Assembly (NCBI GenBank): GCA_964036275.1
Contig: OZ038439.1
Span: forward strand, 15,980,330 to 16,044,329
Direction: 5' to 3'
Source of the DNA: Litoditis marina
Lineage: Eukaryota > Nematoda > Chromadorea > Rhabditida > Rhabditidae
DNA length: 64,000 nt
A model generated the notes under the pieces. The model was not told the origin of the DNA. It saw only the letters and a list, made by a program, of their open reading frames with translations, and made no database searches. Shown in pieces: positions 9,101-33,100 of the stretch (the stretch's first letter is position 1; each line of letters starts with the position of its first letter). The position numbers and the translations under genes were made by a program.

Positions 9101-12100
9101 GCCTTGTTCAGCACGAATCTTCTCAATCCTGCAAAAACGATAATATAATACGGGTAATATAATAGCCAATTTCCCACCATTTTTCTTTGAATTTAGCGGT
9201 ACGTGTGTCTTGCTTTGTGTTTGCTTAAACAAAAGTGTTTCAAACAACAGTTTATTAGTCACAACGGCGAACGAACACAGCAAGATGCAAGCTAAATTTA
9301 ACACATAGCACAAGACCAACATGAGACAGTAAACAAATAAATAGCCCAGGTATTCAAAATAATATAACACACGCATTACGCATAGTAAAATGAACTAGAA
9401 TTGTAGTATACGACGGACGCGAATCGTGTACCCATCAGAACTCAAACCAAACACAATCTTAAAAAATAGAATTTATTCGCTAGTGAACCGTAATTAAGAG
9501 GTTTATCATATCATAGGAATGAATGTCTTTATTGTAAAGAGAGACACTGCTAAAAGGATAAAAACAGTTCAATATTAAGTGATAGTACTTGTTAAAGACA
9601 GGATAGAACCGTTAGATACAATATACAATTCAAAGTGAGGGTTCAAGAGGCAGGAAATTATTCACAACACCCCCGGAGTCAGTAAAAAGACCATAGTTGT
9701 CACTACACTGCCAGACCCCATCGACGACAAACTTGAACAGGGCTGCAGAATGCGTGTCGAGTACGGCAGACAGTTGCCAGACATTGCCACCATCTAGCCG
9801 TGTCATTGGCCGCGGCTTCCAGTCCCATTGCGAACAGGCCAGTTCCACGCGGCTGCTTCCCGGCGGGAAGCTCTCGCGCCAGATATACCTCGTCTCCTCT
9901 TCTCCCGCCACCTCCACCACATCCTTTCGCGGGGTGGCCGGCAGCAGAGGCGTATAGCAACTAAATGAACAATCAATCGCATCCTGACCAAGATCCACAG
10001 AAGTATCCAAGGGCGAACAGCACAAAGGCGACAGCCTAAAGCACACACGGGTTGTCACTCACTGTTCCACGGGCAGAGTCCATTCGGGCGAGGGCACACA
10101 GCGAATAATAGACAATCAGGCACACACTCGCATGGTCAGGGCAAAGCGGATTGAATATAGGAAAAACAGGGTCACGGTCTCATACGAATTTCGGTAGGAA
10201 AGTGCGAGGATATAAGTCGCGTCCAATTAAAAAGTTTCGAAAACTTGCTTGTTTTTCAGATTCTTGTCAATAAAAAAGAGGATGACCATAAACTGTTCAT
10301 TTGGTCAGAAATAACAACGATAACAAGTGGGAAGCCGAAAAGAAAACTGTGACCGTGGGCACGGAGCACTGTGAATTGACAATGGATACTTCATGAATAT
10401 ATTCGGTGACAATGGGCAACTATGCGTGATAACAATTGAATATGGGTGTACAAATGACTATGGTCACGAGGTGAATGACAATTGTCGATAGTGCTGAGAA
10501 CATTGACAATGGTCAGTGACACAATGTTACTGTAGACATGATTGTGAACAAAATGTTCAGGGGGTGTGAAATAACATGAATGAAAGTTAAAATGTCGGTA
10601 TATAGAGCAGACAAGAGAGTACAGAGGTGTAAAACCTGAGAACAAGGCCCCGAAACATTGAAATGGCCCGAAACATTGAAATGGTTACACGAACAAATAA
10701 GTAACTGGGGCAAGCAAACTAGCAACTAGGCAATTCCGAACTCAAAAACGCGAAAATTGACAGATAGCAACAGAAACAAAGGAATCAACATTGAGGTTAT
10801 GTACTCGAGATAGCAATACAATAAACATTGTTATGGGGTTGATCTACTGTTTGAACACTAGTTAACCATTCAGCTTTTCCTCCAACAGTCCGTGGAAAGA
10901 CGGACTGATTCGCTCACTCACGTAGACGTTTGTAACACTTCGACAGAGCACGGAAATGGTCTCTGAAGATATTCAAACATGCAAACTTATGATGTGAATG
11001 GAACTATGAAACCCATTTCACACAGCACGGCAAACAAAAGTTACAGATCTCTATGACGCTGTGTTTGTAGTTTGATCCCTTAATTTCTGATAGAATTTTG
11101 AGATCGCGCATCAAATTTCTACCATAAACCTCATTTGTGTTGACTTTAAATATAAAGGTGTCTTTCGGGAGTGGAAAACATTTTAGAAGAGGGCCAACAT
11201 CACTATTTTTTCAGTTCGCGCTGGACAAAAAGTTATAATCAACTCGAATAAAAACCGTAGACATACCCAGATAGCACGAAGAAGAAGACACTAGCATCGA
11301 TTTCAGCTTTAGGGACTTGATGAACTTCTTGAGATCCTCCGGCACGAGAACATTGCTAGTAGAAACCTGCAACAGATACATTTGCATGAGTTCAAAACCA
11401 GAACCAGATAAACCGCTGCATTGATAAGCGGTATTATCAATAAACACAAATAAATCTCAAATGCACGCTTTTTTGAGTTAGTGGCCGGGTCTGTCTTTCT
11501 TGACCATCTTTCGAGTAAAAAAACAAGAACATGTGAGGTTGGCGAACTGAAAAATAACATACAATACACTCAGATATGGACGCGTAAGTTTTCAACCGAT
11601 ACTGTTTGTTTCAAGCAAACAGTTCGATGCACTTAACATTCAAGTTCTACGTTAAAGTTTGAACCGAGAAACATTATGTTTCTCTTTACGTTCTCCTACC
11701 TTGGCCTTTCTCATTGCTAGAACCAGTTGCTTTTCGGATAGCCACTTCTTCTGTTTTCGACACATAATGATGATGGGCTCGACTTCAACGGAGAATGACT
11801 CTAAAATGTGCTTAGCTTAGAACAAATGCGCAACTACAACCAGAGAGCGGACGGAAATCAATAGTTTGTGTTTTGAGACACTAGTGTCTCCAGAAACTAT
11901 TGTGTTGGATTCAAAAAGTGTAGTAAATTCGAACATGTCTGTACTAGCCCAATGATTATTCAAATATGTGAGCTGCATGGAATATTGAAGATTGAACGTG
12001 AAACCCGAGTGAAAGTGTACTGAAAAGCACTTCCAATGTACACCGCAGTAAATTCCGAATCTATCCATTATTTAAAGCAAGTTTATTCCAGATCCAATTC

Positions 12101-15100
12101 TGGAATTGTTCAAACAAAGAAGTCTTCTCACCTTTCAATACAGGTGGCTTTGCAGTGCGTCGTAGGTACATGTGGCAGAATGTGACTTTCTTTCGCTTCA
12201 GTAACTCGATGGACTTGGCATCTGGCCCGAACATAATTGAGAAGACGTCCAGATTGCCAGATAATCGTCTCTTGATGTTAGCCAAGCCCTGAAAAGACAT
12301 CTGTCTCATCACAACAGACAAATCATGCTTTTGCTAAATTTTGGAAAACTTTTTGCATTTTAGATGTCAGTGAAGAAACCGTTCAGCAATTATAGACACG
12401 TATTGTTTGGAGATGTAACTGGAGTAAAAGTAGCACGTAGAGAAAATCAGATAATATTCGGACACTCCACTTTCGAGTTCTCGTTGCGGTACATTATGAG
12501 ACGACAAAACAAAATATTCCTACCTGAGGAGATACAATTATCACTTCACTCTTGTGGTACATGTCAACGGATCGCACATTCGAGGGTAGGATTAGATTTT
12601 CTTGCGCTAGAGCGTGTGCCGCAACCCGAGCCGCATACGAAGTGATCGATTCCGCACGCTTCGGCTTAACCTCCCTGAAAATCCATGAGATTGGTTAAAA
12701 GATAATGTTTAACAGATGTATCATGAAACGGTTGTATTCGTGATTTCACTTCCTCCTCCTCAATGGTTCAGAAGTTACTCAAACGAAACGTAATTGACTC
12801 GGAACCGCTGCTCTTAATCGACTTGAAAATATTTCAGTGTGCTGAAATAAGCAATTGCAGCAAATTCAACTAATCGAATTTAGGCAAAAAAAACTGAAAC
12901 GTCGATCAAATTCAATTTCGTCATTGAAATAGATCATAATTTGTTAATGAAAAGAGTACCTTACTGCAACTCTATGTCTACTTAAAGATATCTGAATGCT
13001 GTCGAATGGGAGGTTGTACCACTCTCAAAAAAATATGAATTCGCGACTCACTTAACTGACAGAGTACATTCAACCCCTCTATTCAGTGTGACAAACTCCA
13101 AGATGAGGTCATCAGAATAGCCGTACTCCCGAAGCTTGGTTCGGACGTCGTATTCCATTTTGAGCAGGAACTGAAACGTGTGAGCTCGAGAATAAATCAG
13201 TGAATCCGACTCATTGACCGAGAGTGGTCCGTTTCATTGTTGATCGAATGAAAAATGGGAGATTTCGTGTGAAACACCGCCTCCCCAGTTTGGCCGTAAA
13301 AAGTGAGCCGCTAATTTCCGAATTTGTCTGGCTATTCACTTTCTCTGATGCCTGATGCGCGTTCACTGTTCGGCCGAGAAACATAATCAATGTGTGAGTA
13401 CACTAGTATTAGATTCAGATGCTTCATTAACCAATTGAGTTTTTCTCAAAAGATGGTATAGGGTTCACGTCATGACAATATTTGAAAATCATTCAAACAA
13501 TTTCTCCCGCAATTGCTGTGGATGAGCGAATGTCACATACTACAAATGTAGATGGATAAATGAATGAAAGTTACCTTTGTTGCCGTGTTCATAGATGAAC
13601 TTGTCAGTGGCGTATTGACGAGTTGCTTGAGATGAGAAAGTACCGCCGACGGGTTTTTTCGCTCCGCTCTAACCAGGTTTATGTAGAAGTGCGAGTAGGT
13701 AGGTATCCGTTTCCTTCTAGAGAACTTCTGAAATTAAAGACAATAAGCATATTAGATGTGCGTAAAACGACTGTCAGAAAAAATCCCGACTACTAGGGTT
13801 GTTAATTGAGTTCAAAATTTCGAGTTTTCGAGTTAGTGAGTTTTGGAAAATCTTGAGTTTTCGAATTTTCGAGTTTTTGAGTTCGACTCAACTCGAAAAT
13901 TTGCGAGTTTTTTCGAGTCGAGTCGAGTTTCATGTTTGACTTTGACAACCCTACTGACTACCAACAAAATTATATTTTTTTTGTTCGATTGCTCGCCAAA
14001 CGCCAATAGCATTATAGTTGTTTTCGTGATTTCTTCGGAGTTGTGGTAGCATTTGGAGCGAATACGTTCGTTGTCTGATTGAACGACGAAAAAAAGAGGA
14101 ATAAATGTTGCCGTTTTAACTAACCTGCTCGTGAAACCGGTCCAACTTCTTTATCAGTTCCATCAGCAAACGCTTCACCTCGCCATCCAGTAGAGCAACA
14201 CGAGCGAGCCACCACATTTTATACTGGAACGTTTCTGTGATCTATGGTAGTTGTTCTCAGTTGTACACGAAAAAGGAGCCCAATTTCGCGGGCCCGATGC
14301 AAAACCATGAAATGGCCGTGTTTAAAATGGACATTGGGTACGATTTTGCCAGGATTCCCACATCATACAGGTGCGAGGTGATGTTTGCTCTATTAAAAAC
14401 AATCATTTGTCAAAATTTTCCCGAGCGACAGGTTTCACCGTATTAGCAAATCGAAACCACAGCAACAAAGACGTACTTAAAGCGCCTCCCAACCACTGGA
14501 TTTGTTTAATGATAACTGTGAAGCGTAATTTCGCAATTGAAATTAGAACAAACAAGCTTTCTAGAACATACCTCTTCTGGCATTAGTGCTTCCTTGAAGA
14601 CAGCTGTCAGGTCTTTGTCTGCGAGTTTCTCACAGTTTTCCTTGGATAGACGAGCGTTTGCGAGAAGTACCTCCATCAATGCTACCTGTGGGGTATCATA
14701 TTTCAAAGTAATCGCGATGTCGGCAAGGTAGCACTTATCCGTTCTCGTTTTTAAATGCAGTGCACGTTCCACATTTAGCCTTACCAAGTAACCGCAGGCG
14801 TGTACCAGGGTTACTGTTGATCAAATAGCTTGTCATTGCAATGAGAAACTAGAAATTACACAAAAAGCCGTGCGTCCGTTGCAAATGCTTCTTTTACGTT
14901 TTGGTTACGGCAAAATCAAGTAGTTTTAGATGATGGTAATTGAAAAAAAAAAGAAATAGGAAGTTTCGTACCATTTCACGCATGCTTGTTTTGGCGTCTG
15001 GTCGCGCTACGCAGCTTTGTACGGCAAAATAGCGCTCCGTTGATGGAGCGGAATCCACTGGCAGAAGCACTGTCACCTTAAATTGAAACTTGTACCGTTT

Positions 15101-18100
15101 GGTTAATGGTTATTGGCCAGTTGGTGGTTCACAACTGAATGAATCACGACAAGTAAAATAGATTTGGTTTTGTATCAGTTGTCCACATGGTGATGAACAC
15201 GTACTTTAATGAATCGTCCCACAAACTTGAATCGAAAAAAGGGTGGATTTGTTTGGTCATCCATGATACCACCCGATTTTTTTTGAAATCGGGTTCCGGG
15301 GTTTGTGAATTGAATCGGAACACCCATTAAATTCCTAATAAAAAATGTTGTGGGCGGAAAAACCGTCACTTTGGAAATTGTAGTTGATTACTAGAATTAG
15401 GGTTTAAATGGTGGCACACCTTTTCATAATTGACTCTCTCGGCCGAAGTTGCTTGTTGGAATAGTTCCTGTAGGGCCAGAAGAGAATGCTGTCCGTCGTG
15501 AATTTCAATTTTGGACCTGAACGAAAATAGTTCGATTACGTCTAACTCAAGTAATATCTTTATCTAACGCTGCCCCAGCTTGCAACATGGCCTGATACAA
15601 ACTAGAAACACAAGAAATGAAAAAAGGATTTTGCAATAACTGCAATACAACGACAGTTCTGACCCTAATAAAGATATCTTAAGTGTACTCGTAGAGTTTT
15701 CGTGACCCTGGTCAATGACTGATTTCAGGATCGAAAATGGCGAAAATTACCTGCCCTTCCTACATCCTCTCAATAATATTGTGGCCGGATCGAGTAAGCT
15801 GCTCCTGATGAGTGCCTTCTTCTCTTCGACTGCTGCTGCATTCAGCACTTTGATGCACCACATTGGTGTGCAATCCATGACTTTGATCTGCAACATGAAT
15901 GTGAGGGAGATGAAATCGTTATTCTCGTTTCACCTCGCATTGCGGGGTTGACTTTCTTTCGAACGGACCAAAATCTAACCTAGTATTCTCAAAACAAAGT
16001 ATCTGTTTTAGCACTGCACCGTATTCAAGCCACTACAAGTGGAGCCAGAGCAGTACAAGTAAGTAATGCTTGAGTTGGCCGACTGCGTAACGTTCCTTGG
16101 AGTTTGAATGGTTCGTACTGGTGAGTAAGTAAGCAAACCGCTCGGTTTATGGCCTAACCAACTGATTCAGAAAGAATCAGCTCTGATTGGAAACGAGAAA
16201 AGGAGGTTGAGAAAGAAAAATGTTTTGACAAGAAATATGCGTTATGCGAACTAAAGTGATGTATACAATTGCTAATAACGGTGTTGAAATCATCTTATTA
16301 GTGTGTAGACTGGAAAACTATCTGGTTCAACTTACAATTTCCGTTGTTGTGGGAATCGCAGAAGTGAATACTTTTTCGACGAGATGTTTTCCGTCTTTGA
16401 TCATTGCCTCTCTATTGAGATTGAGATCCACTGCCGTTAGAACCTCTTGCTGTAAACAAACACCAGTAAGCTTTGACTAAGCGACAGAAAGAAGCCCGTT
16501 GTCAGATGTAAAAACGAAAAACGTGGAAATATCTGATTTTTTTTATCAAAAGTTGAACAATTGATTTGTTTTCGGTGCAAACATGAGTCCGTTTTTCAAA
16601 GATTTCTTACTATTTAGACAACTTTACTGGTGTATGGCAGCAAGTCATACTATTGAAAGACGTACAGCTGAGTGATTGTCGAAATTTGAACAATTCGAAG
16701 AAAAAATTTGCTCTATGTTGGCACCTATTCAACGTGAAGTTTTGCAATAATTCTTCTCCAGTTCGGTGCGGGGACAAGTTCATGATTACCTAGTCCGATA
16801 ATTAGAATAAAGATTTTCACAACTGAACTTACTGGTTTCTCTGTTGATGCTTGTTTTTTCGGGGTCGGTACGACAAAAGTTGGCTTTTGACCCTTGCTGG
16901 GTAGATTTATTCCAGTGGCTTCGCTTGCACCCTCCTAGAAAACGATTATGAAGAAAAAACAGCAGATATCACTTCATTGGCATGTCCGTCTGGCGCCACA
17001 ACACCAACGTCAAAAACAAAGCTCTAAATTTGATAAATGAAACCTGAATGGTTGCTGTAAGTAGCGAGTGAATTAAACCAAAGCGATGAGAGAAACTCAC
17101 TTCATCTTCCTCAGTTTCGGCAATCATCATCCCGTCACCTAAAAATTAGTTCATTATTTGAAAACGTGCAGAACTGATAAAATGCAATATTCCCTGCTTG
17201 GAAAAGTGAATTTCAAACGGGATGCAGCTTTGTTGGCTGATGCATTGAACAATCCGGTCTAATCGGAAGAAAAGGCAACAAGTGCTCCAAGAACTGCATG
17301 TGAATTTAACTGAATCAGGAAACAGTACACAGTCGCATCCGTAACGTTAAAATTACTAGCATCACACGTGAATAGGTTGAGAATCGGGGTGAACAAAGTG
17401 AACATGAGGTGCTCAAAAAGTGGGAGTGACCAGCCCCAAAAACACATATACTAGTAATTTTGCTAGTAGATTATACTAGCATTTTAGCAGCAATTCAATG
17501 CAATTCAACACAATGCAGCAACAGCAGCAAAACAACAGCAATACTAGCAGTAATTTTGCTGGTAGATTATACTAGCATAAATACTAGTAGATTTGCCTTT
17601 GCCTAAAATACTAGTAATTTTGCCCCAAACCCGAAAACTGATCATGGCACAATCGAGTAATATGGCAAAAAAGTGGGCATCAGCCATCACCAGGAAAAAC
17701 GAAAAAGGTGTATTTTACGCATGACTAGAATCGATCAAATTTGGTGCAATATAATTGTTTTTTTTGCGGAGTAATCATATCTCACTTTTTTCTGAAGTGA
17801 ACAAAAACTCCTATCGTGTTACACGGTTTGGCTGCTCAAAAAAGTTGAAACTTATCCAAAATAGCACTGAGAAAGATTCAAAAACTCGCCTGCTTCCGTG
17901 TCTGGCGCAGGTTCATCTTCATCGTCGCACTCCTCTTCCATTTCCTCATCTTCGTAATCGACATTCTCATCGCTCTCGCCCTCGTCTCCGTGCTCATCCG
18001 CGCATTTCAGCGAAATCGTACTCAAATCACCTGAAACAGGGCGTTTTTGCAATGTCAGATTTGCGCGCCATCTTCAAAGACAGAAAAGGTTATTCAATTT

Positions 18101-21100
18101 CTCCATTTCCAAGTATGGGAATTCATATCTTTTCTCCAATTCTTTCATAAATCCCAATTGCAAAAAAACTTGACTATTCGCGAAAAAAATTCAAAATCTC
18201 TTCGTGAGCAGGTTTGCCGACTTACCAAGGCCAAGTGAGCTGGGCCACACGTAGGGAGAATGAGAAACTGATTTCTCCAAAAAAGAATGTGGAAATTTTT
18301 GATTCCGAGTTATCCATTTTCCCCAGTTCAAACTCAAAACCTAATCTTTTCTAGTCGGATAATCCAAACTCATTGTATTGACTAACCCGGAACAAGAGCA
18401 GGTACAGTGTATAGCCAACTGACGTCGAGCGTAGATGACGATATGCCGTTTAGAAAACACTCACGAACACTCTTGATAATGAAACAATCGTAGTGTAGCT
18501 GAAAAAAATGAGAAAAAATGGGTACGACTTTTGCGATCTCGCCACTACGGTCGAGGGTCGAACGAAATAACACGTTTTCTAGCTCCTATTCTCTGTTCTA
18601 CAGAATAATAAAACATCTTCACGATCTAGATCGGGGGAACCGCATTCCCCTATCCATTACGCCCAATCGCAATTCTTCACAGATTGAAAGCGATAATAAA
18701 ACATTTGAATGGTATTGTGGTTGAAAAAATTGAGTTCTAGTTTGCCCCCAATTCACGCTGTTCAACAAATATGATTCTCTGCAAGTCCTTATTCTCTTTC
18801 GAACAGAAAATGAGTTGAATAAAATACCTGAATTTCATCCGCAGCAATAGTTATGAGAAGTGGATCGCCAAACGTGTCTTCACTACAGGGACGTTTCAAC
18901 GACTTGCACTTTCCATCTCTAACACGGCATAGAAACGAGCTACCATCTAATGATAGGAGTGTACCTTCTGGCAGCTTGGCAGCTGGCAAATCTATTCTCT
19001 GAAAAAAGGCAATAGACACACTTTTTCTAGGAAATGATAAAGGTAAATGAGTGAAACGCTCAACGTTGAAACACATATTAAAACTCAACCATGTGTATTT
19101 TCCGGGGAATTAAATGAACTAGTACTTCAGATAACTCCACTTGATTGGCAAACCTGGAGTTTAATATGTTATCTGTAAACTGTGAACTTGCTTTTTAGTT
19201 AGCTTACGTGTGAACAATTGGACACATAACAAACACTCACTTTTCTTGTGTTCGATGGATCGACCCCTAGCAATCTCAGTGAGGGTAAATATACCAGGTG
19301 GACATCTGATTTTACGGTATCTGAAATGTATTATCTTCTTGAGGAACGAATAACAAGCCCTATTTCTATCAACATTTAACGGGGAAGGGGGGGGGGTGGG
19401 TGGGTGGGAGATACAACGTCCGGCGGGGCTGAAAAGAAAACTATGTGTTGTGGGAGGAGCTTGGTACACTCAGCCAGTTGTTGGCTTCGAATCGATTTTC
19501 TCGCGCAGTCCTAGGTCTTCACCCTACTTGCAATGGTTGAACGAACTATTGATTTGATGCGGTTTTGAAAACTCACCACCCAGGTAAGCTCCGAGTTTTT
19601 CCCGCAGTATATCCTCACCAACACGTCCGTTTGAAAGAACCTTCATTTAGTCTGTAATTTCAGAGAACATCCACAGAAAACTCAAAGTAACGATTATAAA
19701 ATGGAAGCGGCATACTCTGCGAGATCACATCTCGAACAGTGCAGAAAAAATGGCACCAAGGAAATCTCATTCAGAAATAAAACTCATTACTGGAAAACTC
19801 ATTGAGAATTGAAACTCATTAACTTATTTTTAGTCAGGAATTCAAAAATGCCAAAAAAATTTGAAAGTTGATTTTTGCTTTTCTCTACGTTCATGTACTT
19901 AATGAGATTTATTTTTGAATGAGATATACTTCAATGAGCTCTATTTCTGAATGAGTTTTTCTGTTTGCCAGAAAAAATACAATTTATGAGAAACAATAGA
20001 GCAAGATCAAAATTTATTCGACGCGGTTTTAAGCGTGCGCGAGCGCGTAACGACGCGTTTAACTGCAATTAACGTGTGTGTTATAGAGTTACGTGAGATA
20101 CGCAGTGAGCAGACGGTTTTACGCAGCTAATGTATTTTATTGTTCGTCCAGTCGATTTTAAACTATTTTTTCAGCACAAATGTTTTTTATAGTGGACTAA
20201 TTTGAGAAAAATTTCAGCTTGTTGTAATAACATCCCGTGCATTTCATGTTTTCAGAGTGGGTGAAAATGAACTCATTTTCTGGCATTTGTAGCCATCTGG
20301 CGGTGTTCAATGACGATATTGATCTGAATGACGGCACCACTTACACTGATAAGGTGAGCCAGCATGTTTGCTTGAAGTTAATTTAACAACACGACATTTT
20401 TATTCCAATCTGAATCTCAGGAACTAAGTTGAAACTAGGGCCGCCTTATTCTTCAGTAGAATGCACAATTGAGTTCAGGAGCGGAAGGAAACATAATTCA
20501 GGGAAAGATTGTGTTTCGTTAAATTTATTTTCTCGCTAGCTCTCTCAAATGAATGGTGTACACTTCATCTTTCTTCGTGAGTTCCACCGAATTGCTCCCG
20601 AACCTTGGTAAACAACTTGATTTTCAACTTCAGAGTGCATGTCACTTCTCTGCCTGGTTAAGTCATATTAGCCTGGTGGTTTATTTCAGACACCTGTGTT
20701 TATCGCTATCCGATTCCTGAAGAGTGATTTTCGATTGGTCGCTTTGAAGAAAGCACGCGATCATAGAAAAATGCTCACGTCCTTTAAGATCGACCAAGGA
20801 GTCGAGACCAACCACGTGGCCGTTTGTTGTTACGACAATTTCAAGAATAATAAGCGGTTAGTTATTAGGGTACGCCCTTAATTACAGTTGATGTAACTTT
20901 TTCTGAAAACAAGCGTGATACTTCTCATAACCTGAGACCTGAGAGCTTGTACGATTAACAGTTGTATGTTCACTAATGTTAGCCAACTATTCGAAAAACG
21001 GAAAAAATGGGATCGCACATAAAAAAGCTTGTTCACCTTTCAATCTGAGATCTTTACACCTTATCTCCAAATACTGTAACGTTAACTGATAACCCCTCCG

Positions 21101-24100
21101 CTCTCTCTCTCTCTCTCACGCTTTGTTTACTCATTTCCAGCGTCGAAACCCGTTAATTTCAGAGTGATGATCGATGCTGTGTATAAATGTTCCTCGGCGA
21201 ACAGTCCCCGTCTTGCTGCAAGGCTCCTATCCTCACATGGACTTCACCTGGAGACCGTCACGTTTGTAAGTTATTTACAATACTTTCTTGCAACACGCCT
21301 ACTCATCATGAGACTTATTGAGGCTAAATGACCTCCTTCTCTTTGACAAGTTTGTTCAGCTCCAAGAAATGGCGCTGTCGCCGACACACGCTTGAAACAT
21401 CTGGGAGCATCCGTTGGAGAAAGGTGCACAAACAGTACTATTTTAAGATTTTATTGGAAGACATGATCATCTTCGATGAACGTTCACAAATCTGGGTCTT
21501 GCTCTGACTTTCGTTGCATTAGCACAAATTTTGACCTATGTTAATGTTTATTAATTTCAGAAACTTAAAGTAGAACGACTATGTGGTCCAATCCGAATGC
21601 TTCAGTACTTTGAACTGCCATACATTTTTCAATCGCAGCTCAATAGACTGTTGACATGGGATTGGTGCACATAATCATCCGACTATAAGTATTCCAAATT
21701 TTCATATTATTCATGTTGGCTCCATATTTCATTTTCAGATGATATCGTTGGAACATGAGAAGGTTTTCATGGTTCGGGACTCAATTATGCGAGGAGATTT
21801 CGAAACATTTACAGGTGAGACATTAATACAACGTCACTTGTTTCGGGAAAAAGTTAATAGTCGGCCACTGATGTTCACACATCAAGGCATAATGCTGTCT
21901 GTTCACTACATGGTTTTTGAACTAAAATGTCAACTCAAAGAGATGGGAGGGGCGCACTGATCAGGCCGCCCTCGCCCAATGTATTGAAAATGTAGAAAAA
22001 AGGAGCGGTAATAAGTTAACGTACATCCAGGTGACAGAATTCAGCTAAATTAGCGATACTATTGCACTGTTGAACTGACCTTGCAAATGAGCCACATTAC
22101 CTTATTGTTGCAGAGCAGTTTCTCCCGGAAACATTGGACCTATCCGAGAAGATTGCAGTGTGACCTGTCAACGATTATGTGATCAGATGTTAATAAACTT
22201 GTTCATCTATATAATACTTGCGATGTCAATTTCACGGTTTATGTACCCTACCTTTACTTCTCAATAAAATCAGTCGAGCAAACAACTTTCAACAGCTTTC
22301 GTTTTCAATATTTCAGTGAATGTCAACCAATGAGGATCATGATAGCATAGCAAATTTGAGTTTCTCTTGTATGGACCCTAGTTCGGATTCTGAAAATGGT
22401 TCGTTTGAAATCAGCTCCTCCGCTTACTATTGAAGCAGTTATTCCAGTGGATCTAACTAGCACGTTCATTTGTTCAATTTCTCAAGGCTTCCGTGTGTGT
22501 TAGCACCTTTGTGATCATTTCAACGATATCTTCTTGAGTAAAGCAGTTCATTGAAGGGTTAGCCGGGACACCCGGAATGGTAACCTCCTGACAAGGACAA
22601 AGTATCGAGTTAATTGAAAAATGGGATTCTTTATACTTTATGATTACAACATTCAGGTTCCGGAAAAAACAGGGTTTTACCCCAAAGAAGGGCCAGAATT
22701 TTATCTTGTGACTCATCGGTCCTATCTAATGGTCCCTTTTCTAATTTATTGTGTTTAAGATGAAGCCGAATGTCACAAACTACCTGATATGCCCAGTCCA
22801 ATAGTGCTAGAAGCCTTGGACAAAACCTACCCTGCGTGGAGATCTACACCCAAGCGAAGAGTTAAAACTTCCGTAGAGATTCTCTCAACAGCTTGTTGCA
22901 TGTATGGATGTAACCTGATGATATCAAGGTAGGTCACAAACCAAAATCGATTCAGTTTTCGCAGTTTTTGGGAAAATAGAATCAAGAGAAGTTCTAGAAA
23001 TAAATTACGGAAGAAGATGTGAACAAGAGCTATTTGTGCCAACTTTTTGTTTCTACAGATTCACACTGTGATAAACAACTGTTTTTGTTTTTAGCATGTT
23101 TCATTGTCTTCGGCCGATTACACATGCAACCGGGTTGATATCAACCAAATATCAACCTGGTTGCTTGTGTAATCCGCCGTCTTCGCATGTTACGTTTCAG
23201 TTTTTCATTATATACGCCGTTACAGACATGCGATTCTAACTACCAGAATGCTGTTGATGGATGTGGGTCGAAGGGACAAGAAGGCCTCAACTTTCCTGAA
23301 TGCTGTTCAGGTTCTGACCAAACCACTCACCACGGCTGACAATAAATTGCGTCCTCTTCTCGACAATATTAGGGTCTGCTCCAACCTTTTCGCGCAAGTC
23401 CTTGGACTCAGTCTGAGCAGGTATTAGTCATTATGATCTGTAATCTCACTTTCAAAAACGGAACACATCAAGTGTTATTTCATATTGCTCAGAAGAAACA
23501 GCAGGCTTTTTTACCGTGTTATAGTAGCTGGCTTTTTTTGTTTCTCGTTTTGACTTTACTGTCATGGCCTTTCAAAAAAATAACTTGGTCACTCAGTTCT
23601 CCTGTACAGTGTTCAAATCCCACAGCAACTATATTTTCGAAATTCTATTATTTCCATGATCAATTCAATTTTTGCGTGTGCAAGTTAGGGCTTCAGGTTG
23701 TTCGCAAACATCGAGGCAAACCAAGAAGGCGCTCGGGTTCACGGCCGAGAAGGGGCTCTATACACACGCGAGAAAACTATAGAAGCTGTCGCTGCAGGAA
23801 TTTGCCAGATAAATTCCTTGGGGCAAGCGGATCCAACTGGGGGCATATTAATGCCCGCCGGCTACTCGAGAAGGTGTGTTACCATCTTTCACCATTCGGA
23901 TGGCTCCAATCAGCTCAGAAGAAAACTAACAATGTCACAGGCAATCGAGAGTGGTTGTAATGTCCAACACCTATTCTTTTTACATTGACTTTTTCTGATA
24001 TCAAAAGTGGTAGAGACTAGGGTAGTTAGAATTGGAATTGGAATTGGAATTGGAATTGATAGAATTGAGATATTCTTCCAAAAGAATTGCAATTCCAATT

Positions 24101-27100
24101 CTTTTGTATGTCAAAACATTTCTGGAATTGCAATTCCAGTTCTTTCGTATATCAGAACAACTGGAATTGGAATTGGAATTGACTTGATTTTCTATCGAAA
24201 CTGATTCAGAATTGATTTTCAATCCCATGCTGATTTTTCTTTTTCATTATTTAATTACCATTGTTCCTTTTGTCTGTTGTTCAATGGAACCAAAGTGAAC
24301 ATTGTTTCTCTTCGTTTTTTGAAAAGAAAACTGACATTAATTTGGAAACACAGTCAATTCTAATCAATTCTAATCAATTCCAATCAATTCCAATCAATTC
24401 CAATGGAATTGGAATTGAAAATCTGAGATTTCGAGGAATTGATCGGAATTGGAAATGGAATTGAGCAGTTTTTGAAAATCTAATAGAATTGGAATTAGAA
24501 TTGAGTGGTTTTGGGAATTGCAAAAGAATTGGAATTGGAATTGAGTGGTTTTCGAGAATTGAAAAAGAATTGGGATTGGAATTGACTTGATTTTTGGAAT
24601 TGATGAACAACCCTACTTACCAAAATCCCATTTTAGAGCGTTTTTGATAGGAAATCAGATAAATGGAAATTTTCAGACGATTTTCAGTGTTGTTACATCA
24701 TATAAAACAAGTTTGAATCGTATTGGCCAAAATTTGATTATTATAGTGGACCGTATAATCTGGCGTCCAGCCAGCTCAGACAAGGCTTACCAAAATCCCA
24801 TTTTAGAGCGTTTTTGATAGGAAATCAGATAAATGGAAATTTTCAGACGATTTTCAGTGTTGTTACATCATATAAAACAAGTTTGAATCGTATTGGCCAA
24901 AATTTGATTATTATAGTGGACCGTATAATCTGGCGTCCAGCCAGCTCAGACAAGGCTTACCAAAATCCCATTTTAGAGCGTTTTTGATAGGAAATCAGAT
25001 AAATGGAAATTTTCAGACGATTTTCAGTGTTGTTACATCATATAAAACAAGTTTGAATCGTATTGGCCAAAATTTGATTATTATAGTGGACTGTATAATC
25101 TGGCGTCCAGCCAGCTTAGACAAGGCTCACCATTAGAGACGTCATAATTGAAAACGAGAACCGGTACTCTTCGACTGGTGAAAGCCTTACCTCTCACAAT
25201 TTATCGTAGTTTCGTCAACCAGACAAGCAATCATCGAAAAACGTGCCAATTTCAACCTTCTCTATAATAGTTCTGTGGATAGCGAAGTAGAAAACGTAAA
25301 TAGGCTTCCAAAGAAGAATTTGTGAATCTATTATCCATTAGTGGTTCTCGCTGTTTCGGAAGCCGTATCTTTTTTTACGGGATACATTTTTCCAAATGTT
25401 TATTTCAACGTTTTCAGCGACTTTGCTAAGGAGTGCCGTCCAGATGAGTCGTTCAAGTATACACGTTTCCGAGCCATCACGAAAAGACGTGCCAAGTTCA
25501 AACAGGTAACATTACATTACGTTGTTCTATTTCAAGACATTTGACAAATCGCAACTTATTGAACTGTAAAACAAAACCATATTTTCAAGTGGCAATCAAA
25601 TTTTCTAGATAAAGTGTTTCGCCTGCTCAGGTCTATGAAACTGGCTCGTTTTTTTCATACAAACCCGTAATGTCTCATGTTTCCTTAGTAAAAGTTTGCG
25701 ATACCTTTTGTTTTTGACTATTCATCATTTACTCAATTGCTTGCTTCATATTTTTTTTTTCAATTTCAACATCATTGAATTATTTATTTGTTCACAGGCA
25801 GACTCGCACTTGCGTTGCTCTACGTGTTCTCTATTGGCGAGATCGTTGATTTTGAACCGCGGGAATGCATCGAAACGTAGAGAAATCGTGTGGATGAGAA
25901 GACTACATTTCGAGGATATACGGTGGGATCACTTTTCGCCACAGGTTCTCAAGACAGTGTGCAGGCAATGTTCGTAGCAACATGTCTATTACACACTGGA
26001 CCGTATCCATTAACAATTTTGGGGCGGATTCACTGGAGAACCTGGTCCTTCCCGAACCAAACCGCGAACCGGTCACTGGAGAACCGAACCAACTGAACCG
26101 AACCGACTTTTGAACCGACCGGTTCTCCAGTGAATGTTTCGAACCGAACCGACATTGATCATGAGTTAAACAAGCAAGTCGTAGGCAAAGTAAAATGAGT
26201 CTATCCCGGTTCGGTTCGAAGCATTCACTGGAGAACCGGTCGGTTCAAAAGTCGGTTCGGTTCTCCAGTGCCTGGTTCGCGATTCGGTTCGGGAAGGACC
26301 TGGTTCTCCAGTGAATTGGCCCAATTTTGGTGGGAGCCTGTCGATTACTAAACAAGTTTTATCTGTAAGCATGAAGAATATAAAAAATGCAGGTGTAGCG
26401 GAAGTCGGGGCAGTTTTAAACCAGCTTAGAAAACTGAATATCGTCGTTTTCAGCAAGGAAAGATACCTCATCAAAGCCACGGAACGGATGGCTCGTGCTG
26501 AACCATCCCGACTTGCCGTTCTGAAGCACGACTCGATGGCGAAGGACGGAACCAAACTTCCCGCTCTTGTGTCGAGGGGAAAAGGAATCACAGACGGTTC
26601 AAGGATCCCAGCATGCCTTCACACGGTGCAGCTTGCTAAGCAGAACTCAAGTAAGTGTATAATTCGGCAAATTCTATATCTAACCGGGTTTTTAGGTAAC
26701 CCTACCCTTTTTTGGTAACCTCTTTCTCAGGTAACCTCAGCAGGTAACCGGTTGGTAACCTAAAGTGAAAAATCGGTTACCTGTTTTTCTAAGGCAAAAT
26801 GTGGTTTTTACCGTTAGTTTGAACGGTAACCGGATTTTAGTTCAGGTTACTTTCAGGTTACCTACCAAGGCAACCACAAAAATAGGTTACCAAAAAAGGG
26901 TTAGGTTACCTAAAAACCTGGATAGTTGTAGAATTGGCCGTATGTCTCACACACCGCTTGTTCTTTATACTAATATTCAAACTCGTGCCGTTATTCGTTT
27001 TGCAGTTTATTGAAATTTCTCGTTTGTTCCATGAACTGAACAAGTCGATCATACCAATTTGAAAGTAATGAATTCAGATGGTGGAAGCTACACAAACTAC

Positions 27101-30100
27101 GTATATCTGAACCCAGCGTCGGCCACCGAGGGTGGTTCCGACTACTATGTGTCCATGCTACTGCACACTCTGGCCGAAGTGAGTTGGTACTATTCTTTTC
27201 ATAACATTAGATATATGGTAAATTGGAACTCCTCAATACGATATTGAATACTATTTAATTGCTTAATGTCTATCCGGCAGCCTCTTCGTATAACATCAAA
27301 ATTAAGATTGTTGCACCCCTGAAACAAAGATTGCCCCTAAGAAGTTTGAGAGACAGTAGTCTACTTTTGTTTGACTGATAAATTAGCAAAATGTGTAACT
27401 GAGCTACGTTAAATGGGAACTGTTTAATTGCTGTCCGGGCCAACGCGAGATCAGGGGGATAATATAGGCCGTCGCAGTGTTTCCGATTAGCAGTGTTTCC
27501 GATCTCAGAGTGTGATCAGGCAACTCGGATGTTACGCTTTTCATTTACGTCGAATCTACTTTTCTGGTAGGTCGTTTCTAATTCAGATGACTGTGGTTCC
27601 GCCTATGCTCGTTATCCACCAGGATAACTGTATAGCCAATAAGTCCGATGCGTTCTTCGGGTTCTGTTCCTGGCTCCTTCTACAACTGAAAGAACTGGAA
27701 GAGGTGAGATTTCACACTACGGAACGGGTTGAAACAGTACGCTTGTTCGAAAACTAACCCATTCATGCATGCAGTTCTATTCTCCAAAATCACTAGTGAA
27801 CTTTTTGCTACTTTCCACTTGCAATTAGTGAACATTGAACCTAAAATGCTCATTCAGATTCGTGTTGTGTACTCTGCTGTTGGACATACACACGACAGCG
27901 TTGACGCTTTTTTTGGATCTCTGCGGAAGTCAATGCGCACCACAGACATACACACTCTGGAAGGTAATTAGAAACGTTGCGCGACTTTTTCGGACCTTAC
28001 AGTAGGCTCTCCGTTTTACTGACTTTATTGCACTCCGCTTACTCCCGAAGAGGTCGTGGAGAATAAGAATCGTAATCTTAATTGTTCACTAAACCAACGT
28101 TTTTCGATAGTTTGTTCCGAATTTGTTAGAAGAGATTTTTTCTCTGTTGAACTGGCACTCTGTGAATTTCAGACCTACTCGATTATTTGAAGAAAATGAG
28201 AAGTGTCCATCAAGTGCAAACTGTACCTCCAGTGTATTCGTTCTCACCCCTATGCGGAATGACTAAGGGGTACGAATGGAAAGCGAGTCAACATCAGTTC
28301 ATTTTCAGAAGGGACGGAAACGGTGGGTTATGCACTACGATCTGATACACAACAACTTGTATCATCTATCTTATATTCACACATTTCTAGCCTTTGCAAC
28401 AACCCATTTGCGAATAAAACTGAATCATTTCTCACAATACAAATTGGTTACTATGTACTATATTCATGTTTTTCTCAACGCTGAAATGGAAAACCTTCAG
28501 AGAACGCCAGCCCCATTTTCTTCTCATCTTATTAGGGGAACGCATTTTCATATTTCAGGCGGTGTATCCTTCTCCTATTGTAGATGGCTTGGCAATGCAG
28601 AATTTTCCGATGAATCCACTGGCCGCATAAAAGAATGGCCAATGTTTGAGGTAGGAACCCACAAAACTAAACTTTGGCACTTTTGTCGTTTTTTCCGCTT
28701 CTACGTGAATAACGTTCTTCTAACGATTCTCTTACAGTGCAGAAAATCCTCATATCATTAAAAAATTACAAGTTAGTCGAGAAGAATCGTTACCGATTCA
28801 ATGTACAACGTACGATAAGTGCAGTGTTATTTTCTAATGTGACATATTAACTTTATCAGTTACAGGCTATTTCTGAACCCAAACGTGTAATGAACTGTTT
28901 ATAATAATAAAATATCAAGGTTAGGTTAAGCCAGCAAACTATAAGATATCAGGAATTGTTATTTAGAGAATTCTCCCATGTACCTGAGAATCCCGGCTAC
29001 CTATAATCTCGGTTATTCCTGGTTACCTATCTCTTGCTGGTAGATTTCAATGTTTTTGAATTTAAAAACGCTGCTTCAGACTCGAGCCAAAGCAGAAGAA
29101 GCCACAAAGTTCATGCCGGACATTTTGCCACTTCGAATTCTAAGATTGAACACCGCCATCTCCACAGTGATAGCCGCAGTCACTCCATACCTGGATTCAA
29201 CCCAACTTCTTCATTTTCAAGACTTGGGACAGGAATTGGAGAATCAGTATTCCAACTCAGGTAATTATTTTTCATGTTGCCACTTAAACAGTTGAATTGT
29301 TGAAGAATTGCGTATGATCAATTTATTTCATTTTGTATGGTGGTTCAAATGAGTTTTGTATCATGTTTTCGACATAAAAAGGTAATATCGCGCATAAACG
29401 CAATATTCACGTTCAAAAATAATGCAAAAAGAAAATTCAACACAATGGTTAATTTGCTTTACTGTTCCCAAATCCTCTTGACCTTCTTGTTCTTCAGAGA
29501 ATAATTCAATGTGATAATAAATCAACATAATAAGCATTGTTCGAATCAGACCACCAACCAAACCGAGCATTTTGCTGTGTCACCTTGGAAACCTAACGGG
29601 GAAACCGGGTAGTTTCAATGTCGCTTCTTAGTAGTTTTGTTTTCCACAAACTTATTGGCGTTTCGGTTCGCCGCGGTCCCGGCTTTTTGAGTGACCGGAA
29701 CTTGTTAGCCCGAATTTGAACTACTTTCCATGGTCCAATCGTCTCGAAAAAGCCATTTCACCTTTTCGTTAATAACTTTAAGATGGTATTTACAGACACC
29801 ATTGCCACTCTGCTCTCACGAATTCGATCCAAGTGTGTCCCAGTCAGTCCTGCATCTACAGTGACACAGAGAGCCACTCTCAACAAGTTCATAGAGAACA
29901 ACCGAACTGGCGGACGACGTTGGCAACCCATACAACCAATCAATAAACGAAGAAGAGTGACTAAAACCTGAATAGTTCGGTTTTGTATCTATTTACCGTT
30001 GCTTCCCATCATTATTTCTTTTCTGCTGTGTTATTTTCTCCACGGTTCAGGTTGATTCTTTATTTGATTTTTTTATGAGTTTTATTTGATTTCTGCGGTT

Positions 30101-33100
30101 CTAGTGGTGACCACGTGCCCATTAGGCTTTTTCACATGTATCAAATGTATTTGCCGTGCTATTATGGAGAAGATTGTATTTACTGATTCTCAAAGTCGAC
30201 TATTCAAGTTAGACCTAGTTATTCAAGTTAATATAATTATTATGTAGCTACATTTTGGTTGGCTGAATAACTATCATCATATTAGCGAATCGACTATTAA
30301 AACTATGTAACTCAGTCAACGGACGTCATTTTGAATTGTAATTGGCTTGTTTCATTCTGTTGACCATAGTCATCTTAGTTGATCATAATGTCCACCGTCA
30401 TTGTTTCATAAAGTTGTGGCCATTGTCATTTTATGTTGCCAGTGGTCAGCGATTACTTTTCATATGGTTCTGCTTGCAGTTCTCACCAATGGTCACCTTC
30501 ATTATGACAGTTGTCAATATATATTATTTCTGGTTTGACAACTATTGAATAAACTGGTCAAATGTAACACGTTCTCTCTTGCGCTGGCGATCTCTGCAGG
30601 ACTGACAAGAATCTGAAAAACAAGCAAGTTTTCGAAACTTTTTAATTGGACGCGACTTATATGTTGCAATACAGGCTTTCTGATGCCGGATCGGCCGGAT
30701 TTGCATGATAAAATGAACACGGTAAAACGGTGAGCATAACTCGACAACAGGTGGGGGCTGCGTCAGGCAAAGCACGGGAAGTGTCCAATTTCATCAGGCA
30801 GAGAGACGAAATAAATCGTGCAGCAAAGGTCTAAGCTATAACATAGATTAGCCTTCTGAACACACAAAAAGCTTCAGACTTCACAGACCGGCAACGTTGT
30901 GGACGTTTGAGTGTATAGAGCCAACCAAAGCATTACTAAACCTTTTTCAATATCTCTAATTTTCAATTCAATATATCATCCCAATGTGAAAAAATATTCC
31001 ATAGTATTGTACGTGTATTGAGAATAGGTTAAATCAAAAAATGCACTCGACCAGCTAGAAAAAGCACATAAAACTTACTCAGCAGCATGGCTGGCAGCGG
31101 CCTCGTCCAACTTCTTTGACAGAGCGGCGACGCTGTTGCGCAGCTCAGAGTTCTCTTGCGCCAGCTTCTCGGATGCGCTGAAAAAAGACATGAAGCAAGG
31201 CTGTCAGCATACCCCAGTAACGTCCGACTGAGCTACAAAAAGTAGGCCATTTTCAGAGTTAGACACGTGAAAATTAAGAATTTTCCTATCAAAAGTAGAC
31301 CGTTTGCCTTCTTTTCGGCCAAAAAGTAGTCCGTTTCCGATTTTTTCTGACTATTCGGACAACTTTACTGGTGTATGGCTGTCAGAAAACACACTACTTG
31401 ATCGATTGCCCGAATTAGGGCATTGGCACCTAGAAAGCCCTTTTCAAGAGAACAACACAGACTGACGAATGTCAAGTCTTAAAATCCTTTTTGAAAGTAA
31501 ATCCATTTGCTTCACATATCCTATCCTACACCATGTTGAGCTGAAAAAATCCTTCCTATAATATACTTCTAAATCAAACGAAGACCAATTCACACTCCAT
31601 AATATTCGAGAGCAGATTCAGACTCTAGAACATTCAGATGAAGATTCTACCTCTTGGTGCTCTTCTCCAGCTCAGCAACGCGTTCCTCACGGGCAGCCAG
31701 CTCGCTGTTCTTCGCATCCTGCTCACGCTTGCTGCAAAAAGAACACAATTAAGCATTCTGCATTCAACATGAGGCAATACACAGTTGAGTCATTGACATT
31801 GTGATTAACATGAATCATAATACTTAATACAGTGCTGCGTAAAAGTCAATGGTTTTATTCTAAAAAAAGTTAACAGGTTTATTCTACAGAAAGTAACCAG
31901 TTTCAGTCAGATTCAAAACGTGAAACTCCTTCCTTTTTCAATTTCATCAAGAATCGGCTAATTTTCACAGTACGAGCGAAAATAGTAATCCATTTTTCGA
32001 ATACTTGTAGCCACACGCCACACCACATTTAACGGCGAAACTATGCAAACAAAATTTGACCCATAAATTTTAATTTTCTTTCTAGATTACTGTTAACTTC
32101 ATTATAACATGTTTCCAACAATATCAGTCCATCCACTTTTTGTTTTTCTATTTACTGGATATGATAGTAAACAAGGGCAGTCATAAATACTCACTAGGTT
32201 TCGAATTTGGCCACCTCCTTGTGCAGTTCTCCGACCAGAGCTTGAAGTGACTGATACTCCTCCATCAGGTTAGACTCTTTCTAAAAAGCAAACAACAATG
32301 AAAAATAAAAACATTTCCATTGGAAAAGTGACCAACTAGAGAAAGACGTAAGACTTTGGGGTTAAGACCCGATATGATCAATAGAGTAATGAATTGAAGA
32401 AAAAAACTATTCATCACAATTATATTATGATTCATAGTTTTCAAAGTTAATCATTCTCCAAGTTACAATGTCAAAACTGAGTGTCATAGATAGCTAGGAC
32501 GAGCGCGGAAGATTAAATGAAACACGGAGGGATGGGAAAAGAGAACGCCCCCTCTCGATCAATACATGTTTCATCATAAAACACATGAGATAGCGACAGC
32601 TGTACTTAGGTTGCGTTGCGCCGAGTGCAAAAAACAGGTCTCTGCAAGATTTATTGACACATTGAACATGTGGCCACTTGATATCTATGATACGAGAGCT
32701 GATAGAAATGAATGCGAGCTCGCTGGCAAATACTTCCATGCTAAAAAGACAATGCGCCGCTGCCTATCGATTTAGCATTAGAACGTCATCTTTTGGGCAA
32801 GCCAATTTTTGCTGCCATATAATTGTTTTCACTGCGTTCTCACGATTTCTTAAAGAACTAATAGCTATTGCTCAAAGGATTTCGCTTGAAATTGGAAAAT
32901 AATTCCAAATTTGATAGCCTGAGAGAGAAGCCAAATAACATCCAGCTAAGCACGAGAATGGGTTAGCAAAACATCCCCCAGCAACATCTAATAAAAAACC
33001 GGTTTACTATTGTTACTGTCAATTCGTGAGCTAGGTAATTGAATTTCAACGCGCGGGTCCACCTAAATAGGTCTAGTTACCTTATTAGTAATGGCACAAG

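Follow-up and report, generated by a model that had tools for sequence, protein, structure and literature searches.

The closest systems that we found in print are the Sola transposons, which are set beside the element analyzed here by their published descriptions. In the accessible part of the report on the brown alga Ectocarpus, Sola1-1_Ec32 is a 21.5-kb Sola1 transposon in which a ParB-like gene and the transposase lie on opposite strands, and the ParB-like protein has 1104 aa and also carries a DNA methyltransferase domain (PMC12477816). The accessible text on the Sola2 elements of the amoebozoans Dictyostelium and Polysphondylium describes 4-bp AT-rich target duplications (ATAT among them), an 888-aa transposase, terminal inverted repeats (TIRs) of 12-21 bp, related families with one common terminal region that are different elsewhere, and Fanzor1, not a ParB-like gene, as an additional gene (PMC3627910). 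The window that we analyzed, i.e., a stretch of 64,000 nucleotides of the nematode Litoditis marina, contains an element of 20,453 bp (10210..30662) that resembles the algal transposon in its size of ~20 kb and in having a gene (M1) that may be faintly ParB-like opposite to the candidate transposase gene (P), although the M1 core gave no match to a methyltransferase domain. With the amoebozoan Sola2 elements it shares a large putative transposase (P, at least 739 aa) and relatives with common ends, and the ATAT at its edges may be a 4-bp duplication like theirs, but its TIRs have 60 bp. The features of the ends are the following:

10210..10269, plus strand: left TIR; its first 4 bases, ATAT, are the putative target duplication
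10350..10515, no strand: left-end array, in which the 12-bp palindrome TGAC-N4-GTCA (TGACCATGGTCA) occurs five times, with starts at 10350, 10407, 10455, 10476 and 10504
30361..30516, no strand: right-end array, in which the palindrome TGAC-N4-GTCA also occurs five times, with starts at 30361, 30389, 30417, 30437 and 30505
30603..30662, minus strand: right TIR; its last 4 bases are ATAT

The first-pass annotation had proposed a very large transposon with perfect 60-bp inverted ends, and the two TIRs are indeed 100% complementary over 60 nt with 20,333 nt between them, which is far beyond chance. The inverted subterminal motifs that it had noticed are also real, and are better described as the 12-bp palindromes, with five copies at each end, when 200 shuffles averaged 0.47 and never exceeded 3; another five are spread over the other ~19.5 kb of the element. 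These arrays, which are new in this analysis, were present at both ends in all 15 elements examined. ATAT forms the outer edge of both TIRs, and it was found at both ends in 13 of 14 two-ended copies, the 14th (L062) having ACAT at both ends in direct orientation. At least two bases, the inner pair of ATAT, are thus directly duplicated. A TA-only duplication within ATAT, as in Tc1/mariner, would also be compatible with this, but its form in L062 would be CA. Among the sister-type ends with an exact core, none had a first base other than A, and only one combined a first A with a fourth base other than T. The proposed ATAT duplication is likely, but one of 2 or 3 bp within A-NN-T fits equally well.

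A genome search with a 24-base pattern of the end, allowing up to 3 mismatches, returned 64 + 71 = 135 matches, while the reversed pattern returned 1 + 1 = 2. The 100 ends listed formed 38 pairs, with 24 ends unpaired, and the spacing of the pairs was ~1.2 kb in 21 of them, 2-5 kb in 15, 0.5 kb in one and 20.45 kb in one. Full-length copies with the same ends had been named as support. A diverged sister element of 21.7 kb was found (C16:28049384-28071115), whose ends are 77% like those of the window element and whose own end pattern gave 235 matches (control, 0); only one complete two-gene copy of the window end type was found among the 38 pairs. In the sister the layout is as in the window, with M1 on the minus and P on the plus strand and no stops, and identity to the window proteins is 385/734 residues in P and 172/506 in M1. 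P is found inside related ends at three places (the window, the sister and the C381 copy), and M1 at or near related ends at three loci (the window, the sister and C16:38.92 Mb); in the last of these, the M1 relative and a perfect match to the end of the window element are 3.0 kb apart, compared with 2.8 kb in the window. The C381 copy, which has the window end type, is without its left half and without M1, and keeps most of P with a 1-bp deletion in one exon. The genes had been called cargo, a term that does not hold in view of the same opposed gene pair in the diverged sister and of the M1 relative at about the same distance from the same end at the third locus.

The 13 short copies that were read have neither P nor M1, so movement in trans occurs. 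The longest blocks common to nine short copies have 95.6-99% identity, which points to recent movement. Dozens of far shorter relatives that have these ends may have been mobilized by the element. Searches with the joined flanks revealed empty paralogous sites for 6 of 15 elements, one of them the sister; in one joined-flank search, 10 of 15 joined flanks had no match among the matches listed. When five empty sites were aligned, exactly one ATAT was present in those of L052, L054 and the 21.7-kb sister, so that empty sites with a single ATAT are seen for relatives; the window copy has no empty site in the assembly.

Between the two arrays, gene P was assigned as follows:

20690..29971, plus strand: gene P (P1+P2), 16 exons, 739 aa in one open frame; a candidate start exon ends at 20353
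20690-20856, 21163-21265, 21739-21814, 22760-22928, 23226-23420, 23697-23873, 25418-25505, 25798-25922, plus strand: P exons 1 to 8
26454-26650, 27078-27178, 27587-27703, 27858-27963, 28173-28322, 28559-28650, 29080-29260, 29796-29971, plus strand: P exons 9 to 16
27098..28587, plus strand: P exons that encode the DUF7869 match, which covers residues 315-475 of the 614-aa part

The length of 739 aa is a minimum, the start exon being tentative. Three intact multi-exon genes had been described; the genes are multi-exon, but they are probably two, as P1 and P2 are most likely exons of one gene. A phase-1 donor at 21814 and a matching acceptor at 22760 join them in the window, with modest acceptor scores, and the sister has the equivalent donor (C16:28064132) and acceptor (C16:28065277); in view of these common splice sites, we no longer treated P1 as a gene of its own. 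In the sister the aligner put two mini-exons between the shared donor and acceptor, which are unexplained and were not trusted. The DUF7869 assignment was confirmed, since P matches PF25273 with E 2.6e-24 and 86.3 bits (curated cut-off, 26), and the match was obtained with all four P sequences tested. Besides DUF7869, only a chance-level AAR2 match was found for P in Pfam: no transposase domain of KDZ, hAT, MULE, PIF/Harbinger or the other superfamilies with Pfam models was matched, nor a Tc1/mariner DDE transposase up to E 10. With ~8000 candidates scored in each protein search, no homologue of the 614-aa part was found, and the P alignment recovered one distant metagenome protein, P0001; the alignment matched no relative among viral contigs and no solved structure. 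The fold of P0001, the only one tried, was discarded (mean pLDDT 33.7). Between the window and the C381 copy, dS is 0.047 and dN 0.0036 (dN/dS 0.075), which indicates purifying selection on P between copies. Positions HD.M.KD, QDN and GHTH..VD, which contain acidic residues, are invariant in the four P sequences of the genome, as would be fitting for a DDE/D catalyst. In P0001 the HD and DN are retained, whereas the second D of HD.M.KD and the D of GHTH..VD are replaced; a full DDE/D triad is thus at most tentative, and our confidence in the explanation preferred below was lowered slightly.

Gene M1 is located on the opposite strand:

10862..16449, minus strand: M1 core, 13 exons, 515 aa free of stops, with a DGQH stretch that is faintly DndB/ParB-like
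16449-16336, 15887-15751, 15516-15420, 15076-14972, 14685-14572, 14223-14125, 13727-13575, minus strand: M1 exons 1 to 7
13170-13052, 12674-12524, 12288-12132, 11800-11700, 11366-11267, 10962-10862, minus strand: M1 exons 8 to 13, the last two set by eye
16812..19000, minus strand: tentative 5′ exons of M1 (PTPKK near 16.9 kb; an acidic stretch at about 18058-17870; a block at 18923-18825), matched to the sister by eye and by weak tblastx, with approximate borders

M1 had been called ParB-like, and of this a faint resemblance remains. Through its DGQH stretch, M1 matches the bacterial DndB family (PF14072) with E 0.019-0.11 and 14.5 bits, when the cut-off is 29.1; M1 also matches a ParB-like PHROG weakly, with E 0.21. 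No ParB/DndB-like match was above a curated cut-off, and a ParB/DndB relation was found for none of three M1 members in NCBIfam and PADLOC. Matches to a SANT-like domain (E 0.014, in one of three members) and to TniQ (E 0.2, one exon) were at chance level. The M1 alignment found no homologue in the protein search (~8000 candidates scored) and no relative among viral contigs; in solved structures M1 alone had no match and the alignment a chance one (E 1.2).

Building on the ends, the copies, the empty sites of the relatives, the two-gene core of the sister, the selection on P and the palindromes, we think it likely that the element is an autonomous member of a cut-and-paste DNA transposon family, with P as transposase, M1 as accessory protein and the palindromes as protein-binding sites. 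M1 and P are most likely the core of the element and not passengers, being conserved in the diverged sister. We infer that P, the DUF7869 protein, would be the catalyst that cuts at the ends (AAGTCGCGTCC...), with insertion at ATAT and the target bases left duplicated, and that M1 would be a conserved accessory with a probable DNA-binding role, either at the ends or in expression of the element. The arrays would be the binding sites of either P or M1 and would be needed in cis, so that the short relatives without genes keep them. The palindromic site arrays recall parS, and it is conceivable, though doubtful, that a ParB/DndB-like M1 loads on them in a partition-like animal transposon and works with the DUF7869 transposase, in which case M1 on the palindromes might pair ends that are 20 kb apart or control copy number. 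Whether the element belongs to the Sola superfamily (Sola1 or Sola2), with DUF7869 as the Sola transposase, is in our judgment evenly balanced, and such a classification is compatible with the cut-and-paste explanation. The perfect 60-bp TIRs agree with the inverted ends of the superfamily, and the ATAT-type 4-bp duplications of Sola2 (PMC3627910) and the opposed ParB-like gene of the 21.5-kb Ectocarpus Sola1 (PMC12477816) argue for it in the accessible texts; the 12-21-bp ends of the amoebozoan elements (PMC3627910) and the methyltransferase domain of the algal protein (PMC12477816), which has no match in the M1 core, argue against it, the comparison being one of published descriptions.

That P and M1 are captured host genes, and that an unrelated transposase acts on the element in trans from another locus, appears very improbable. 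Trans movement of the short copies without both genes, and the single complete two-gene copy among 38 pairs, argue for it, but the same opposed pair lies inside the related ends of the sister with proteins only about half identical, the comparison of copies indicates purifying selection on P, and the genome has 12 hits to the DUF7869 profile, five of them with identical score on one contig, as in a repeat family. M1 could instead be the recombinase, a ParB/DndB-like nuclease acting on the ends, with a regulatory or structural role for P; some proteins of the ParB superfamily are nucleases. We give little credence to this arrangement: M1, like P, is tied to ends at three loci, and P0001 has only some of the acidic positions of P, but the invariant positions of the four P sequences would be fitting for a DDE/D catalyst, most of P but not M1 is present in the truncated C381 copy, and DGQH in the window is QGQH in the sister M1. 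Mavericks (Polintons) are defined by a protein-primed DNA polymerase B, a retroviral-type integrase and capsid genes, and Helitrons by a Rep-helicase protein and the lack of a target duplication. A Maverick or another integrated virus is practically discounted here; the ~20-kb size, the inverted ends and a chance-level match of one P exon to the poxvirus family B3R (E 0.036; 14.4 versus 27.5 bits) would fit it, but no polymerase, integrase, packaging ATPase or capsid was matched by Pfam in P, the M1 core or 20 single ORFs, the duplication lies inside ATAT, and there are short relatives that carry these ends but neither gene. In the same set DUF7869 was the only Pfam match above cut-off, in agreement with the earlier statement that hallmarks of Mavericks, Helitrons, Tc1/mariner and piggyBac are absent. 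The inverted ends and the duplication further argue against a Helitron, the lack of a DDE match in P up to E 10 against Tc1/mariner, and ATAT, with the lack of a Pfam match in P, against piggyBac, whose duplication is TTAA in the accessible text (PMC5199201).

The cut-and-paste explanation would give DUF7869, a curated domain without known function that is here tied to mobile ends, a testable role as a transposase; no mention of it, and hence no such role, was found in the literature searched. The element is apparently a DNA transposon of an animal in which two large genes, rich in introns and spread over 20 kb, form the conserved core, with clear cis sites, i.e., the inverted ends and the palindrome array, that are kept in many short relatives. 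The element had been called undescribed-looking, which stands insofar as no matching description was found for giant transposons of nematodes or for Sola in Haemonchus and other nematodes in the literature searched, and a giant-transposon review text did not contain ParB, KDZ, DUF, Academ, Sola or nematode; it does not stand for the general plan, as the Ectocarpus transposon is in print, in the accessible part of the source (PMC12477816). Because this algal element also has a ParB-like gene opposite to its transposase, the comparison suggests that partners of this kind may be found repeatedly among giant transposons of eukaryotes. In addition, a further repeat separates the two divergent genes:

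19751..19970, no strand: 220-bp inverted repeat between M1 and P

Its counterpart in the sister is found at the same place, with 69% identity over 218 bp.

The contig that carries the window element measures 18 Mb, in a genome of 262 Mb. Its inverted ends (10210-10269 and 30603-30662) were identical over 60 bp, as the first-pass annotation had claimed, and the 60-bp end matched many genomic places (at least 40 scored matches). When no more than 3 mismatches were allowed, a 24-base pattern of the end gave 64 + 71 genomic matches and its reversed-pattern control 1 + 1, so that the genome search proposed there did find recurring ends (135 matches versus 2). Pairing was performed on 100 listed ends out of the 135; it yielded 38 pairs, and 24 listed ends had no partner.

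Spacing of the pairs among the 100 listed ends
20,453 bp: 1 pair, the window element
1.19-1.21 kb: 21 pairs
2.0-5.1 kb: 15 pairs
475 bp: 1 pair

When 13 two-ended short copies were compared with the large element, detectable similarity was limited to about 40-113 bp at the ends; nine of them were mutually 95.6-99% identical in their longest shared blocks, and in 12 the longest open frame had 63-126 codons. The thirteenth, the 2.2-kb copy L059 (C19:17809623-17811791; C-numbers denote contigs, L-numbers shorter relatives with this end type), carried a 338-codon open frame of no assigned kind. A second copy of the end type, on C381, matched 21186-30662 in pieces of 91-98% identity, with the right end present and the left half absent. 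In addition, a diverged full-length sister element of 21.7 kb (C16:28049384-28071115) had ends that were 97% alike over 61 bp and 77% like those of the window element, and its end pattern gave 124 + 111 genomic matches (control, 0).

Both elements share one gene order, M1 being encoded by the minus strand and P by the plus strand; in the window element the two genes diverge from the central stretch, and the M1 stop (10862, read off the sequence) and the P end (29971) lie 652 and 691 bp from the element ends. The window P is open over 16 exons (739 aa), and the sister P shares 385/734 residues with it and has no stop. The three-gene cargo claimed earlier probably comprises two genes: its P1 and P2 are joinable through same-phase splice sites found in both elements, although in the sister the aligner placed two mini-exons between the halves. 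DUF7869 was detected in all four P sequences tested: those of the window and the sister, and two from less closely related loci on C49 and C1. HD.M.KD, QDN and GHTH..VD are invariant in four P sequences of this genome. P0001, a distant metagenome relative, keeps HD, DN and GHTH, but not two of the acidic positions, so that the catalytic triad of P is a putative one. In the C381 copy one P exon has lost 1 bp, and elsewhere this P differs from the window P by 20 synonymous and 5 non-synonymous changes (dS 0.047, dN 0.0036). Further DUF7869 exons were seen on C16 (18.2-21.9 Mb, five with identical score), C2, C1, C4 and C49, and C1 holds another at 10.36 Mb; these loci probably represent other transposon families with a DUF7869 protein.

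The M1 core is open over 13 exons (515 aa), and its relatives share 172/506 and 173/311 residues, with no stops. At a third M1 locus, the end pattern is matched perfectly and in the same orientation at a distance of 3.0 kb (C16:38916065; 2.8 kb in the window), and its second end was absent among the 100 listed ends. The ParB-like label given to M1 was matched weakly, by DndB (E 0.087 with one of three whole sequences; E 0.019 and 0.11 with two of three cut domains) and by a ParB-like PHROG (E 0.21, one of three). SANT-like (E 0.014, one of three) and TniQ (E 0.2, one exon) matches were of similar or lower strength and were given no weight.

As to the target site, ATAT stood at both ends in 13 of the 14 two-ended copies compared, and also in the sister; the remaining copy, L062, had ACAT at both ends in direct orientation, hence the duplication is genuine for the two inner bases at the least. 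The ATAT duplication proposed earlier is likely, but, because ATAT repeats TA, the duplicated stretch may be 2 bp (TA/CA) or 3 bp within it. Ends with an altered outer base numbered 0 and 1 in two exact searches. G or C adjoined ATAT in 24 of 28 flanks (binomial 8e-7 at 40% GC; counted by eye, post hoc), perhaps as an additional preference in target choice. For 15 elements the two flanks were joined and searched, 40 of 2386 candidates being scored; matches spanning the joint were obtained for L052, L049, L054, L053 and L056, and a second joined-flank search gave one for the sister but none for the window copy. Of these, L052, L049, L054, L053 and the sister were aligned: a single ATAT stands at the empty site of L052, of L054 and of the sister, and the L049 and L053 paralogues differ inside the target site.

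Subterminal palindromes (TGAC-N4-GTCA, at most one mismatch among the 8 fixed bases, scanned 60-450 bp from either end) were present in 15/15 elements, with shuffle-control means of 0.23-0.64 and maxima of 2-4.

Subterminal palindromes per element
Window element: 10
Sister: 8
Nine short copies: 11 each
Four other short copies: 7-8

Their positions were nearly constant within each short family; same-family copies are not independent, and the array-bearing groups number four (window, sister, the 3.5-4 kb family and the L059-L062 family). We infer a system in which P would cut and join DNA, M1 would assist it, and the palindromes would serve as binding sites for one of the two proteins. In the open-licence papers covered, mostly by listings, no description of the window element was found. 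Sola elements are described as having an AT-rich 4-bp target duplication (PMC3627910), which this family may share, and a Sola element of one alga is of similar size with an opposed ParB-like gene (PMC12477816).

Several repeats lie within the element. A palindromic insertion of about 300 bp in a P intron (26022-26322), with CAATTTTGG on both sides and missing from the C381 copy, is a nested element of MITE-like type whose duplication measures 8-9 bp. The large P intron holds three copies of a 170-bp tandem repeat (24616-25132), of which about 13 copies occur at C381:19666-22038. A 220-bp inverted repeat between M1 and P (19751-19970) has two counterparts of about 69-70% similarity, one in the corresponding position of the sister and one outside the element (C381:31456-31544); it is either a regulatory palindrome common to these elements or part of a MITE family dispersed in the genome. 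Sequence related to a second, imperfect inverted repeat (26662-26943) was observed in the L055 flank and in L065. The genome also has tandem arrays of SL1-like RNA genes, as would suit a nematode: the 50 matches scored reached 57.7 bits at most, short of the 75-bit cut-off, and 0 of 14 control genomes gave any. Directly left of the element, an ORF (9630-10058) matches the AMPK glycogen-binding domain (PF16561, E 1.5e-7), so that the element adjoins a host gene.
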